A program made the translations under genes and the position numbers. The notes beneath the pieces are model-generated. The model saw only the letters and a list, made by a program, of their open reading frames with translations. It was not told where the DNA came from and made no database searches. A stretch of DNA of 64,000 nucleotides from an uncultured Dehalococcoidia bacterium (GTDB lineage Bacteria; Chloroflexota; Dehalococcoidia; Lucifugimonadales; GCA-2712585), in contig OY282371.1 of the NCBI GenBank assembly GCA_958295715.1, positions 1,907,697-1,971,696 of the forward strand, given 5' to 3'. Below are positions 23,102 through 29,480 of this stretch, piece after piece (within the stretch, counting starts at the first letter, position 1; every line of letters begins with the position of its first letter).

Positions 23102-23512
23102 ATGGCTGGCATAACGCTTGACGACGGCATGAGGGTTTTGAACGCGGCCTTTGCGAAGGCTAGGAGCTTGGACCTGGTTGTCGGGGTATCGGTGGTGGAC
23201 GCCCGCGGGGATCTCGTCGCGTCGGCCAGAATGGACGGGTCCCTGTGGTGGTGGACGGAGAGCAGCAGGGCCAAGGCCATGGCCACCGTGACCTACGGCG
23301 GCCTGCCCAGCGGCGAACTGCTGGAGCGGGCGTCTCGACCCGTGGCCCAGGCCCTCGTGCACATGCACCAGGGGCGCATGGCCCCCCAGCAGGGAGCCGT
23401 GCCCATCCGGAAGGGCGGCGTCTTGGTGGGGGCCGTCGGGACCGCCGGCGGGAGCGGCGAAGAGGACGAGGAGATATCCGCCGCCGGGGCCTCGGCGGTA
23501 GAGCAGGCGTAG
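23102..23512 (+). CDS. GlcG/HbpS family protein
   Basis: This 136-residue protein is a second GlcG/HbpS-like member: VVGVSVVDARGDLVASARMD near residues 25-44, a central helix SSRAKAMATVTY, and RKGGVLVGAVGTAGGSGEED followed by AGASAVEQA at the C-terminus. The start ATG has GGGAGGG just upstream. It is followed within 29 bases by the unknown gene at 23542 and then the selenoprotein, so the three look co-transcribed. Ligand unknown. Confidence 0.85.
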   Translation: MAGITLDDGMRVLNAAFAKARSLDLVVGVSVVDARGDLVASARMDGSLWWWTESSRAKAMATVTYGGLPSGELLERASRPVAQALVHMHQGRMAPQQGAVPIRKGGVLVGAVGTAGGSGEEDEEISAAGASAVEQA

Positions 23513-23541: not shown

Positions 23542-24594
23542 ATGGTAGAGGTCCAGTGGGACGACCCCGTCGAGGCCATTGAGCGGTGTTACCGGTTGGG
23601 ATGGACCGACGGCCTGCCGGTCATCCCTCCAACGGTGGAGCGGGTGGAGGAGTTCCTGGCCTTTGCCCAACGGCCCGCGGGCCAGATTATCGGATCCCTC
23701 CCCGAGCGGCGGCGGGAGGTGTCCGTGGGCAAGGTGGCGGCCAACGCGGTGATGGCGGGCTGCCTGCCGGAGCACTTCCCCGTTGTGCTGGCGGCCGCCG
23801 AGGCGATGCTTGACCCCGCCTTCAATCTAATCGGCCCATCCTCCAGCATGGGGGGAGCGGCCATACTGGTTATCGTCAACGGCCCGGTGGCGCGGGAGCT
23901 TGGAATCAACAGCCGCAACAACCTGTTCGGGCCAGGAAACCGGGCCAACGCCACCATCGGGCGCGCGGTGCGCCTCATCCTGATGAACGCCTGCGCCGCG
24001 ACGCCGGGCCTCTTTGACAGGACGATTCTGGGCCACCCGGGCAAGTTCAGCTACTGCATAGCGGAGAATGAAGGGGCAACGTCTTGGACGCCCCTCCACG
24101 TGGAGCGCGGTTTCTCCCCGGAGGAGAGCGCCGTTACGGTGTTCGCCTGCGAGGGACCGCGGCAGGTCCGCGCGACCAAACGGCCCGAGGCCACCCTCTA
24201 CTCCACCGCCGACACCATCTCCAGCCTCGGCTCCTCCATGGCCTCCGCCGGTTCGGTGGGGGACACCTCCGCCGTCGTGCGGCAGGGGCAGGTCGCCCTC
24301 GTCTTCGCCGGGACCGCCGACTTCTGGGAGGGATGGACCAAGGAGCGGGTGCGACAGGACCTGTTTCCTCGAATCAAGCGGTCGGCGGCTGACCTGAAGC
24401 GGGGAGGCATCATGGACGGCCCCATTGAGGCGGGGGACGAGGAGCGTTTCCTCCGGCTAATCTCGTCGCCCGATGACATGCTGCTGGTGTTCGCGGGCGG
24501 CAGCGAAACGCCTCACGTGGCGGTCATTCCCAGTTGGGGGCCAACGGTGTCGTCGGAAGCGGTGACCAAGGCCGTGAAGCGTCCCAAGGGCTGA
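23542..24594 (+). CDS. Uncharacterised protein encoded with the UGSC selenoprotein
   Basis: This 350-residue cytoplasmic protein has no signal peptide or membrane segment. It begins VEVQWDDPVEAIERCYR then GWTDGLPVIPPTVERVEEFL, followed by VGKVAANAVMAGCLPEHFPV, a glycine-rich stretch SSSMGGAAILVIVNGPVARE, NSRNNLFGPGNRANATIGRA and LFDRTILGHPGKFSYCIAEN. I do not recognise a named family with certainty; the conserved-looking cysteines (AGC, NAC, YC) and its place 26 bases before the selenoprotein suggest a shared redox or reductase complex. ATG 23542 gives the best-looking N-terminus; GTG 23521 is an in-frame alternative. Confidence 0.75.
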   Translation: MVEVQWDDPVEAIERCYRLGWTDGLPVIPPTVERVEEFLAFAQRPAGQIIGSLPERRREVSVGKVAANAVMAGCLPEHFPVVLAAAEAMLDPAFNLIGPSSSMGGAAILVIVNGPVARELGINSRNNLFGPGNRANATIGRAVRLILMNACAATPGLFDRTILGHPGKFSYCIAENEGATSWTPLHVERGFSPEESAVTVFACEGPRQVRATKRPEATLYSTADTISSLGSSMASAGSVGDTSAVVRQGQVALVFAGTADFWEGWTKERVRQDLFPRIKRSAADLKRGGIMDGPIEAGDEERFLRLISSPDDMLLVFAGGSETPHVAVIPSWGPTVSSEAVTKAVKRPKG

Positions 24595-24620
24595 TTCACA
24601 ACGGGCAAAAGGAGTTAGCG

Positions 24621-25190
24621 ATGGCTAAGCGGACGAGCAGTTACAGGCTGATAGACCCGACGACCCAACCCATAACGGCGAGCTTCAGCTTTGCGCCCAG
24701 GCTTCTTGACCTGCGCGGCAAGAGGATTGGGTTGATAGACGACAGCAAGGCCAACGCCAAGGAGCTTTTGGACGACCTGGCCGCCCTTTTGGAGGACAGG
24801 TTTGAGACCACGGTGGCGTTGTACCACCGCAAGCCCTCGGCGTCGAAGCCCGCAGACCCGGAGATGGTGGAGCGGATGGCGCGGGAGTGCGACGGCGCCA
24901 TTGTGGCCGTAGGCGATTGAGGCTCTTGCAGCGCGTGCAGTGTGCACGACGGCATTCACCTTGAGAAGGCGGGAATACCCGCGGCGGTCATTTGCACCGA
25001 CCGGTTTGAGAGCACCGCCTCGGCCATGGCCGAGATGTGGGGCGCGCCGGGATTCCCGGTGGTCTACACCCTCCACCCCATGGGATCCCTCGACAGGCCG
25101 ACGGTGCGCGACAGGGCCGGGGAACTGGTCGACCCGGTGGTGGCGACGCTGACCGGCGTGGAGGTCTCGGAGCTTATCCCTAGGACTTAG
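24621..25190 (+). CDS. UGSC-family selenoprotein with in-frame UGA at codon 100
   Basis: The frame opens at ATG 24621 (AAGGAG 7 bases upstream) and meets TGA at 24918-24920 directly after GAIVAVGD. It then continues in the same frame as GSCSACSVHDGIHLEKAGIP to a TAG at 25188-25190. Read with selenocysteine at residue 100 the protein has 189 residues and the U-G-S-C motif that names this family, plus a further cysteine at 106. Both halves share composition and the second half has no start of its own with a ribosome-binding site. A small hairpin lies 13 bases after the UGA. Function is unknown; a redox role from the U/C motif is inference. Selenocysteine genes are not in this window. Confidence 0.85.
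24934..24948 (+). promoter_or_regulatory. Candidate bacterial SECIS hairpin
   Basis: CGTGCA-GTG-TGCACG forms a 6-bp stem with a 3-base loop beginning 13 bases after the UGA, inside the coding sequence. Bacterial SECIS elements lie just 3' of the UGA and present a small apical loop with G residues to SelB. Stem, distance and loop G fit loosely; the fold was judged by eye. Confidence 0.45.
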
Positions 25191-25650
25191 CCGCCGTGGG
25201 ACAGGGCCGGGGAACTGGTCGACCCGGTGGTGGCGACGCTGACCGGCGTGGAGGTCTCGGAGCTTATCCCTAGGACTTAGCCGCCGTGGGACAGGGCCGG
25301 GGAACTGGTCGACCCGGTGGTGGCGACGCTGACCGGCGTGGAGGTCTCGGAGCTTATCCCTAGGACTTAGCCGCCGTGGGACAGGGCCGGGGAACTGGTC
25401 GACCCGGTGGTCGCGACCCTGACCGGCGTGGAGGTCTCGGAGCTTATCCCTAGAACTTAGCCGCCGTGGGACAGGGCCGGGGAACTGGTCGACCCGGTGG
25501 TCGCGACCCTAACCGGCGTGGAGGTCTCGTAGCTAATCCCTAGGACTTAGCCGCCGTAGGACAGGGCTGCGGAACTGGTCGACCCGGTGGTCGCGACCCT
25601 AATCGGCGTGGAGGTCTCGGAGCTTATCCCTAGGACTTAGCCACCGTGGG
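25111..25650. repeat. 90-bp tandem array, six units, copied from the selenoprotein gene 3' end
   Basis: Units start at 25111, 25201, 25291, 25381, 25471 and 25561. The first is the last 80 bases of the selenoprotein gene including its stop codon; every unit keeps a TAG at the same place. The three units nearest the gene are nearly identical, the outer three carry progressively more substitutions. The last unit overlaps the stop codon of the convergent aldo/keto reductase gene. Confidence 0.97.
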
Positions 25651-26560
25651 ACAGGCCAACGGACCTCAGACGACTCTTGGCCTCGTCGTAAACCCCGGCT
25701 GAGAGGGGGCCTCTGGCCGCGGCGGCCAGGTTCTCGCTCAGGTGGTCCGGGTTCTGCGTGCCGACTATAATGGTGTGGGCGTGGGGGTGGGACATGGTGA
25801 ACCGCAGCAGAAAGGCGGTGCGAGACTCCCCCTCCTCGCGCAGCTCGTCCAGGTTGGCCTCATCAAAGGCGTCCCACTTCTTACCGCCGCCGCTGAACAC
25901 GCGCGCCTCGGCCCCGGGGCCGGACCCCGGCTCTCCCTTGGCGACACCGCCCCTTATAATCGTCCCGCCGCCCGCCTCGGATATCTTGGTTATAATGTCG
26001 TGGTGCTCAGGCTCCAGGGCCGAGTAGGGTATCTGGAAAACGTCGTAGGCCCCGGTCGCCAGGTGCTTTTCCAGGTGGGGCAGAACGCTGGAGACGCCGA
26101 TGAAACGGGTCAGCCCCTTGGCCTTTATCTCCTGGAGGGTTTCGATGCACCCGTTCTCCTCAACGTCTTCCGCCGTGGGATTGTGGAGTTGGAGGATGTC
26201 CACGTGATCGGTTCCCAGGTTGCGGAGGCTCTCCTCCAGGCAGTCCAGCATGTCCTTTCTGGTGTAGCCGGCGAACTTGTCGGCGCTGCAACGCCCGTGG
26301 CCCGCTTTGGCGGCGAGAACGTACTGGTCGCGCCGCTTTCCAATGTACCGGCCCATCATCTCCTCGCTCCTGCCGTAGCACCAAGCGGTGTCTATGAAGT
26401 TGATGCCGGAGTCCAAGACGGCGTTGAGGATGTGGTCGGCCCGCTCCACGTTGGGCATACGGCCCCTCGCGTCGTCCGTCGCGGCCCCGCGAACCTCCAA
26501 GGCGCCGTAGCCCAACTGAGTCACCTCATAGTTGGTCCGGCCAAGAGTCATCTTACGCAT
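25637..26560 (-). CDS. Aldo/keto reductase
   Basis: This 307-residue NAD(P)H-dependent oxidoreductase shows the aldo/keto reductase tetrad: D57 and Y62 in FIDTAWCYGRSEE, K85 in VLAAKAGHG, and H126 in DILQLHNP. The N-terminus MRKMTLGRTNYEVTQLGYGA is typical. The ATG at 26558-26560 has GGAGG 7 bases upstream. The last codons (RSVGLSHGG) lie in the final unit of the 90-bp array, so the stop has been shaped by that duplication. Substrate unknown. Confidence 0.92.
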   Translation of the reverse strand: MRKMTLGRTNYEVTQLGYGALEVRGAATDDARGRMPNVERADHILNAVLDSGINFIDTAWCYGRSEEMMGRYIGKRRDQYVLAAKAGHGRCSADKFAGYTRKDMLDCLEESLRNLGTDHVDILQLHNPTAEDVEENGCIETLQEIKAKGLTRFIGVSSVLPHLEKHLATGAYDVFQIPYSALEPEHHDIITKISEAGGGTIIRGGVAKGEPGSGPGAEARVFSGGGKKWDAFDEANLDELREEGESRTAFLLRFTMSHPHAHTIIVGTQNPDHLSENLAAAARGPLSAGVYDEAKSRLRSVGLSHGG

Positions 26561-27719: not shown

Positions 27720-27892
27720 GTCCATCCATCCGCCATTCCCGCCCTCTTTCCCGTCATTCCCGCCCCTCTTTTCCGTCATTCCCGCGCAGGCGGGAAGGGC
27801 ACGTGTGCCCATTTTTGTTTTGGGGAGCGTTGGTTCTGCGTTGGGAATTTCTAGCCTCCCGACCCCCATTCCGTCATTCCCGCGCAGGCGGG
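27720..27892. repeat. Hairpin-repeat cluster before the IS30 element
   Basis: Contains a composite element (degenerate ATTCCC hairpin, then GGGCAC-GT-GTGCCC near 27793) and a GCAG-loop hairpin at about 27875-27894 that abuts the insertion sequence. Confidence 0.8.
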
Positions 27893-28884
27893 AATGTGAA
27901 TTCACATTTCAAGTGCAACACCTTGTTCCGGAAAGTTTCGGCTGGGGTCCGGTAGTCCAGACACTTGCGAGGGGTGTGGTTGTAGGCTTGGACCAGTTGG
28001 GTGAAGCGCTCCTCGGACACCGCCGCCAGGTCGGTCTTGCGGGGCAGGGTCCGCCGCAGCCGGCCAATGGCGTTCTCCACGCCGCCCTTCTGCCAGGGGG
28101 AGCGGGTGTCGCAGAAGAAGGTCTGGATGCCGAGGGCGTGGAGAAGGTGGTGGCGGGCGAACTCCGTGCCGTTGTCGAAGGTGACCGTCTGACGCCACTC
28201 CTGGGGCAAGGGTCCCAGGGCCTCGGCTATGGCAGTGGCGATAGGTCCCGCGGCCTTCCCCGGGGGCCGTAGGGCTATGAGCAGGCGGGTGCAGCGCTCG
28301 TGGAGGATGAGGACAACTTGGCCGTAGGCGCTGAAGAGCATGGTGTCGGCCTCCCAGTGGCCCGGCTTCTGGCGGTCATCCGCATCCTGAGGACGCTCTT
28401 CCAAGGGAAGGCGGTCGGGGATGAAGGACACGGAACTGCCGCCCCGGCGCCCCCGCCAGCCTCGTCTGGACTTGCGCCGGGGCAGGTAGAGCCGCCAGGA
28501 GTAGTCCTTCCTGCGGGCTATCTGGGCGTAAATGAACCGGTAGATAGACTCATGGGAGATGACCGTCCTTCCCTTCTCCAGGGCCAGCCGGCCGGACACC
28601 TGCTCCGGGGACCAGCCTAGCTCGAGACGGGCGAGGACATCCTCCCGAAGGGTGGGGTCGCGGGTCAGCCGGTGACCGTGCCAACGGCGGGCGTGGGCCT
28701 GTTGGTCGGCGTACTTGGGCCGGTAGCCGCCATTGGCCGAAGGATTGCGCTTCAACTCCCGAGCAACCGTTGATGGCGAGCGATCCAGAGCTGCCGCGAT
28801 TTGGCGGAGGGAGTGTCCCGTGGCATGTAGTCGGGCAATTTCACACCGTTCCACAATGTCGAGCTGCGTGTAGTGGAGTCCCAT
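27874..28884 (-). CDS. IS30-family transposase
   Basis: This 336-residue transposase has an N-terminal helix-turn-helix (SLRQIAAALDRSPSTVAREL near residues 25-44), then IS30-type spacing through GWSPEQVSGRLA and ISHESIYRFIYAQ. The DDE residues are visible in HWEADTM, VTFDNGTEF and GGVENAIGRLRR. The ATG lies 28 bases inside the right inverted repeat. The final residues after HLK are read past the left inverted repeat into a hairpin repeat, giving EFTFPPARE, so the stop codon is supplied by flanking DNA. Otherwise it looks intact. Confidence 0.95.
   Translation of the reverse strand: MGLHYTQLDIVERCEIARLHATGHSLRQIAAALDRSPSTVARELKRNPSANGGYRPKYADQQAHARRWHGHRLTRDPTLREDVLARLELGWSPEQVSGRLALEKGRTVISHESIYRFIYAQIARRKDYSWRLYLPRRKSRRGWRGRRGGSSVSFIPDRLPLEERPQDADDRQKPGHWEADTMLFSAYGQVVLILHERCTRLLIALRPPGKAAGPIATAIAEALGPLPQEWRQTVTFDNGTEFARHHLLHALGIQTFFCDTRSPWQKGGVENAIGRLRRTLPRKTDLAAVSEERFTQLVQAYNHTPRKCLDYRTPAETFRNKVLHLKCEFTFPPARE
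27893..27908. other. 16-bp perfect palindrome at the IS30 boundary
   Basis: AATGTGAATTCACATT is its own reverse complement and lies two bases outside the IS inverted repeat. The opposite flank reads CGTTTGTGAGTTTAGC, partly similar in inverted orientation, so it may be an outer part of the element rather than target DNA. Confidence 0.5.
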
Positions 28885-28912: not shown

Positions 28913-29480
28913 CGTTTGTGAGTTTAGCGAATCCATCTTCTCCCCTCCGTTACACCAAGGGAACAGCGCGAATCCCCGGTGAGAGCCGGCCCCTTGCGGC
29001 CAGACTGGTTTAAGGTCTCCATCCCTTATTAGAGGGAGAGGCGGGGGTGGCCCTCGTAGACGTCCCTACGGGTGGGCTTGGGGCCTTGGCTTTGGTGTAT
29101 AAGGGGGATGGATTCCCGCCTGCGCGGGAATGACGGAAAGCCGGAGGGCGGCCACCCGAAGCCTACAACGCATAACCAACGCTCCTCAAAACTAAGTGGG
29201 CACACGTGCCCTTCCCGCCTGCGCGGGAATGACGGAAAGGAGGACGCGGGCGGTGGTAGCGAGCGTGACCGGTGGCCCCGGGGCTTGGGGCGTTGGCTTT
29301 GGGGTGTAAGGTTCCTGGATTCCCGTTTTCACGGGAATGACGGAAAGGAGGACGCGGGCGGTGGTAGCGAGCGTGGCGGTGGCCCCGGGGCTTGGGGCCT
29401 TGGCTTTGGGGTGTAAGGTTCCTGGATTCCCGCCTGCGCGGGAATGACGGATAAGAGAAGATGGGAAGGCCAGGCGGCCG
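28913..29480. repeat. Gene-free region with four hairpin repeats between IS30 and recJ
   Basis: 28913-29085 has no recognisable gene or RNA. From 29100 there are hairpins at about 29113, 29218, 29322 (TTTC loop) and 29432, a GGGCAC-AC-GTGCCC palindrome near 29200, and a 110-bp imperfect direct repeat (GGACGCGGGCGGTGGTAGCG at about 29242 and 29348). Confidence 0.8.

Follow-up and report, generated by a model that had tools for sequence, protein, structure and literature searches.

A UGA-containing UGSC-family selenoprotein gene and its near-obligate partner in a Dehalococcoidia genome: a probable selenium-dependent reductase related to GrdB and PrdB

Introduction

UGSC proteins, which account for 8.2% of marine selenoprotein genes (PMC9402790), form one of the most common selenoprotein families of aquatic metagenomes, yet they have so far been without a function. 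The 2008 GOS survey suggested a thioredoxin-like fold for UGSC and described its fusion to a domain designated "Unknown_1" (PMC2398784). In the literature that we found, the function, fold class, partner and reductant of UGSC have not been worked out.

Among the closest described systems are two selenium-dependent reductases. Glycine reductase uses the thioredoxin dithiol as reductant; D-proline reductase also takes a dithiol which, as the enzyme is NADH-dependent, is probably not thioredoxin (PMC10298544). PrdB, the Sec subunit of the latter enzyme, carries Sec at residue 152 of 242 (PMC3091704). Genomic and transcriptomic evidence indicates that GrdB-type modules have been retargeted, even to fluoroacetate (PMC10838667). 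Published bacterial SECIS elements are hairpins located just 3' of the UGA, with a G within a small apical loop (PMC1088965).

Here, we describe a UGSC gene in the window, i.e., the whole 64,000-nucleotide stretch of DNA that was analyzed, from an uncultured Dehalococcoidia bacterium. Considered as a whole, our reading is that a Sec-decoded UGSC and the product of the gene upstream, P, constitute a two-subunit reductase related to GrdB/PrdB, and we regard this as likely.

Results

The UGSC gene and its reading frame

A single UGSC-family selenoprotein gene, in which the UGA is read through, occupies positions 24621-25190 of the window (forward strand, TAG stop included). Its frame runs from an ATG at 24621, which is preceded by a ribosome-binding site (AAAGGAG, 24608-24614, forward strand), through an in-frame TGA at 24918-24920 (forward strand) to a TAG at 25188-25190, with no further stop. 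When the TGA is translated as Sec, the product has 189 residues and reads ...VAVGD-U-GSCSACSVHDG..., in which Sec is residue 100 and UGSCSAC represents a UxxCxxC motif. The first-pass annotation had proposed just such a frame, continuous over the TGA, in which Sec would be residue 100 of 189. This proposal was borne out by profile searches, in which the joined protein scored 193 bits against the Pfam UGSC family, PF24696 (profile positions 2-171; cut-off 25), and 149 bits against the NCBIfam model UGSC_fam, NF041046 (cut-off 125). The gene thus adds an ordinary new member to a selenoprotein family that is already known; no second UGSC gene is present in the 2.40-Mb genome from which the window comes.

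In a comparison with the closest relative (L061), dN/dS was 0.148 before the UGA and 0.150 after it, showing that selection persists beyond this codon. This result bears on the alternative that the TGA is an ordinary stop, with the downstream half of the gene being either unused or a decaying remnant. Such a reading could appeal to the program-made list of open reading frames, in which the first half of UGSC is closed at the TGA, as well as to the location of the 3' end of the gene within a young tandem array. Nevertheless, the frame is conserved and under purifying selection on both sides of the UGA, the U/C column is invariant, a hairpin is maintained at synonymous sites and the Sec machinery is complete; we therefore give the ordinary-stop alternative almost no credence.

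The tandem array in question (25110-25655, forward strand) comprises 6.1 copies of a 90-bp unit, with 96% matches, and repeats the UGSC 3' end and stop codon. Each unit corresponds to the last 26 codons of UGSC, the stop codon and approximately nine bases beyond. No other full copies of the unit were found in the genome, and the array seems to have arisen by recent expansion of the UGSC 3' end. Approximately 2.7 kb downstream of UGSC, at 27874-28884, lies a transposase-like gene (HTH_38 plus integrase core, IS30-like), near which dispersed short repeats occur, e.g., at 29212-29451.

It had also been claimed that any standard gene caller would split the gene. This was true of the open reading frame list and of the deposited UGA copies in Acidovorax sp. 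T1 and Paracoccus ferrooxidans, which are truncated or split, but is too sweeping as a general statement, since the existence of the dedicated model NF041046 means that NCBI annotation recognizes the family. In the P. ferrooxidans plasmid pFER4, UGSC is annotated as two hypothetical proteins with the break at the UGA (L184, 5977-6546); P adjoins this split gene and selB is situated approximately 4 kb downstream on the same plasmid.

Sec machinery and other selenoproteins of the genome

A search for selA, selB, selD and tRNA-Sec had been recommended as a check, and all four were present in the genome. The tRNA-Sec scored 73.7 bits and has the anticodon tca (ARAGORN), while selA (541 bits), selB (349 bits) and selD (368 bits) all exceeded their curated cut-offs. 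SelD is itself a Sec form, with an in-frame TGA in the context LANCAGUASKF (G000:C1:70120-71043, L017). The same genome encodes a PrdB-like selenoprotein, also with an in-frame TGA, in the context VPAUPICHQS (G000:C1:269347-269727, L172). Given these two proteins, UGA decoding rests on more than the UGSC gene. PrdB-type Sec proteins are numerous in the class and may perhaps be enzymes other than D-proline reductases.

A conserved hairpin downstream of the UGA

A SECIS-type hairpin, CGUGCA-GUG-UGCACG, with a 6-bp stem and a GUG loop, was identified at 24934-24948 (forward strand), i.e., 14-28 nt past the UGA, with 19 nt separating the UGA from the loop G. The folding energy of this hairpin taken alone was not exceptional (z 0.65), so that a comparative test across genes was needed. 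Across 81 Sec genes, the region directly after the UGA was more stably folded than in synonymous resamplings, with a mean z of -0.95 as compared with 0.00 for control stretches. The six stem pairs were formed in 479 of 486 cells (98.6%) in these genes, whereas 500 synonymous resamplings gave a mean of 333 (69%) and a maximum of 357. One stem pair exhibited covariation, being C-G in 64 genes and G-C in 17, and the loop began with GU in 80 of the 81 genes. Ser107, which forms the loop, was encoded by AGU in all 79 genes with a serine at this site, vs. 59 of 790 (7%) other serines; this pattern was kept in 31 of 31 Ser-bearing representatives sharing <60% identity. None of the seven Cys forms tested had AGU at the site, and these retained three to five of the six pairs.

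The strict SECIS pattern was unmatched in three genomes (G021, G045 and G046), in two of which (G021 and G046) inspection revealed the hairpin in variant spellings. In a gene of the last-mentioned genome (L196; G046:C127), Ser107 has been lost (SAVTADG) and all six pairs are retained with other bases, the loop being UUA, not GUN. Judged by sequence comparison, the UGA at 24918 is decoded as Sec via a conserved downstream hairpin.

Homologs and the Sec/Cys column

UGSC was found in 94 of the 294 genomes of the class, with exactly one in-frame TGA in each of the approximately 150 class matches listed. The expectation that homologs would have either U or C at the Sec column was confirmed by alignment: U100, together with G101, S102 and C103, was invariant among 29 aligned class relatives, and Cys was present at this column in an actinobacterium (L129) and in plasmid records from haloarchaea (Natrinema, Halalkalicoccus and Halorientalis) and from Arthrobacter, Roseovarius and Variovorax. 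In relatives, Trp, Ser or Gly frequently replaces the third Cys of UxxCxxC. Neorhizobium galegae has a divergent UGSC-P fusion (L185, 5746-7414), in which GHCSTC replaces UGSC; its annotation shows two hypothetical proteins that overlap but lie in different frames.

In a 5-Mb genome of the same class (G027), at least 25 SECIS-bearing UGSC sites were detected, with 0 for a reversed control pattern, and another genome (G028) contained at least five UGSC-type SECIS sites by the strict pattern. The extreme expansion of this selenoprotein family in the former fits many substrates better than a single housekeeping role. No UGSC was confirmed on viral contigs using a pattern that spelled Cys and was blind to Sec copies.

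The partner gene P

The gene upstream of UGSC, at 23542-24594 (forward strand), encodes P, a 350-aa protein of an unnamed family that is a near-obligate neighbor of UGSC and its predicted second subunit. An HbpS-like gene (23102-23512, forward strand; Pfam PF03928, E 3.3e-23), also found in L061, is the first in an apparent three-gene operon in the order HbpS-like, P, UGSC. P matched no Pfam or NCBIfam family and had no credible match in the PDB. The low E-values that it obtained in a PDB profile search were to designed TIM barrels, all matched along one short stretch, and were rejected.

Among the 294 genomes of the class, 88 had both genes, six had UGSC only and three had P only (Fisher p 2e-63). 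We also retrieved 80 loci with P as the sole query, irrespective of UGSC; these came from Chloroflexota, Rokubacteria, Proteobacteria, Binatia, Acidobacteriota, Nitrospinae and other groups. UGSC was nearby in 75 of these, with a median gap of 85 bp; the two genes were no more than 300 bp apart in 62 loci and shared a strand in 73. Three of the five loci lacking it were at contig ends. In each of the 12 plasmid loci examined, P either adjoined UGSC or was fused to it. Single-frame fusions were found in both orders, P-UGSC in one locus (L166) and UGSC-P in three (L168, L171 and L179). Gene content and gene order across these genomes establish that the P family is inherited together with UGSC as a two-gene module, which is occasionally fused. 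The "Unknown_1" domain of the GOS fusion may be P.

A structure model of P was obtained with a pLDDT of 93. Fold searches with this model yielded no reliable structural match and nothing over Z 6, the best matches, all weak, being to cyclic amide hydrolases (Foldseek E 5e-3, TM 0.2). P as a relative of GrdE, GrdB or PrdB was also considered and was not supported, as no similarity was detectable; a pyruvoyl-type substrate anchor is therefore unsupported. When the P profile was compared with genes flanking GrdB loci, the best E-value was 0.42, at which a distant tie is possible.

Thioredoxin genes and other neighbors

Linkage to trx genes was observed in four of nine Cys-type plasmid loci and in only one Sec-type genome locus (L090). 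Arthrobacter sp. ERGS1:01 has the gene order trxB-trxA-P-UGSC and Roseovarius sp. THAF8 the order P-UGSC-trxB. In Variovorax sp. SRS16, trxB lies three genes upstream of P-UGSC, and in Variovorax EBFNA2 a TrxR-like flavoprotein is encoded near a fused P/UGSC gene. Further neighbors of UGSC encode TctC/TRAP carboxylate uptake systems, CoA transferases, enoyl-CoA hydratases, dehydrogenases and PEP-mutase-type lyases, as well as SDRs, luciferase-like monooxygenases and amidohydrolases. We sought a single substrate from such neighbors (SDR, luciferase-like monooxygenase, amidohydrolase, TctC) and rejected this approach because the families were too mixed. The luciferase-like monooxygenases, CoA transferases, dehydrogenases and carboxylate uptake systems suggest small organic acids or xenobiotics as substrates, varying among paralogs.

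The presence of amidohydrolases and CoA enzymes in these neighborhoods, together with cyclic amide hydrolases as the best weak fold matches of P, would suit an alternative in which selenium or sulfur acts as a nucleophile in a non-redox step, such as the transfer of an acyl group, an alkyl group or a metal, and P is the catalytic partner. The fold matches of P are, however, under any reliable level, and redox cycling is indicated by both the invariant Cys three residues past Sec and the linked trx genes. We consider a non-redox role unlikely.

Relationship of UGSC to GrdB and PrdB

Weak NCBIfam matches of UGSC were to GrdH, GrdF, GrdB and PrdB, and all of these spanned the Sec. The scores were far below the curated Grd/Prd cut-offs (18 vs. 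775, 14 vs. 65 and, for PrdB, 12 vs. 300 bits). For profile comparison, full GrdB-type and PrdB-type selenoproteins were taken from the same class, among which GrdB sequences were few. Using hhalign, UGSC matched GrdB with a probability of 92 and a score of 53 over residues 78-178 (column-shuffled maximum 27), and the PrdB type with a probability of 82 and a score of 42 (column-shuffled maximum 22). The Sec columns were aligned in both matches, which persisted when these columns were masked. The part in common comprises the strand preceding Sec, the helix that follows it and an HPxG segment. Profile comparison thus identifies UGSC as a remote homolog of the Sec-bearing domain of GrdB/PrdB, i.e., a relative and not a member of these families.

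In an AlphaFold2 model of UGSC (pLDDT 93), strand and helix alternate five times and Sec starts the helix after the third strand. The model does not have the thioredoxin order beta-alpha-beta-alpha-beta-beta-alpha, there being no beta3-beta4 hairpin, and on this basis the thioredoxin-like fold suggested for UGSC is not supported. No credible match was found between the UGSC profile and PDB sequences. Fold searches returned generic alpha/beta matches only; no GrdB/PrdB entry was seen among them, an absence which is uninformative.

These data also bear on the possibility that UGSC, although a genuine selenoprotein, has a thioredoxin-like fold and acts as a peroxidase or a general thiol-disulfide oxidoreductase, for which P would be a substrate or helper. 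Although UxxC resembles CxxC redox motifs and trxB/trxA occur as neighbors, this explanation would have to accommodate a model of five strands alternating with helices, without the thioredoxin beta3-beta4 hairpin order, a profile match that goes to GrdB/PrdB and a strict pairing with a 350-aa partner that would be unusual for such a protein. A general oxidoreductase is, in our opinion, unlikely.

Discussion

At the level of sequence, the decoding of UGA as Sec, the pairing of UGSC with P and the kinship with GrdB/PrdB are established, and UGSC with P is probably a selenium-dependent reductase of a little-known type. We infer the assembly of a complex, the role of P in handling the substrate and the reaction itself as follows. 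UGSC and P would form one enzyme, in which P would bind the substrate, as GrdE and PrdA do in known enzymes, and the Sec100 selenolate of UGSC would attack it. Cys103 would then resolve the selenium, giving a selenenylsulfide that a thiol donor would reduce, this donor presumably being thioredoxin where trx genes are linked. The chemistry would likely be that of glycine and D-proline reductase, in which a carbon-heteroatom bond is cleaved reductively. A bolder proposal, which we put forward tentatively and see as possible rather than probable, is that UGSC and P represent an unrecognized class of selenoreductases with two subunits. In this view, a shortened descendant of the Sec subunit of glycine/proline reductase would have acquired a new partner and diversified to cleave many different carbon-heteroatom bonds.

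With a named partner, a kinship to GrdB/PrdB and a likely reductant, UGSC function becomes testable biochemistry. A family SECIS element backed by covariation also helps to annotate UGSC copies that deposited genomes currently break in two. In the open literature searched, we found neither the systematic association of UGSC with P nor its kinship to GrdB/PrdB, the linkage to thioredoxin genes or the SECIS statistics; earlier reports are possible in subscription papers and preprints outside this scope.

With regard to known systems, the protein described here belongs to the same family as the "UGSC-containing protein" of the GOS survey and PF24696/NF041046, sharing the UGSC motif, the occurrence of Sec forms with Cys variants and the size. 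Its hairpin shares with published bacterial SECIS elements both the position after the UGA and the loop G. GrdB, GrdH and GrdF, i.e., protein B of glycine, betaine and sarcosine reductase, have a homologous C-terminal Sec domain, in which Sec is aligned within UxxCxxC and HPxG is shared. GrdB moreover works with a second subunit and with thioredoxin as reductant, in likeness to the system proposed for UGSC. UGSC does not, however, have the large N-terminal portion found in GrdB, the tests used showed no relationship between P and GrdE, and the annotated UGSC loci examined had no GrdA or GrdC neighbors. PrdB of D-proline reductase is likewise a small Sec subunit of similar length with a UxxC motif, and carries out dithiol-driven reductive cleavage with PrdA, to which P has no detectable likeness. 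Finally, whereas FarB is a GrdB homolog predicted to feed the remaining Grd system, the FarE/FarB fluoroacetate reductase resembles the proposed UGSC-P enzyme in being a dedicated two-subunit module, in which a GrdB-type Sec subunit is reported to have been retargeted to xenobiotic C-X bonds (PMC10838667).
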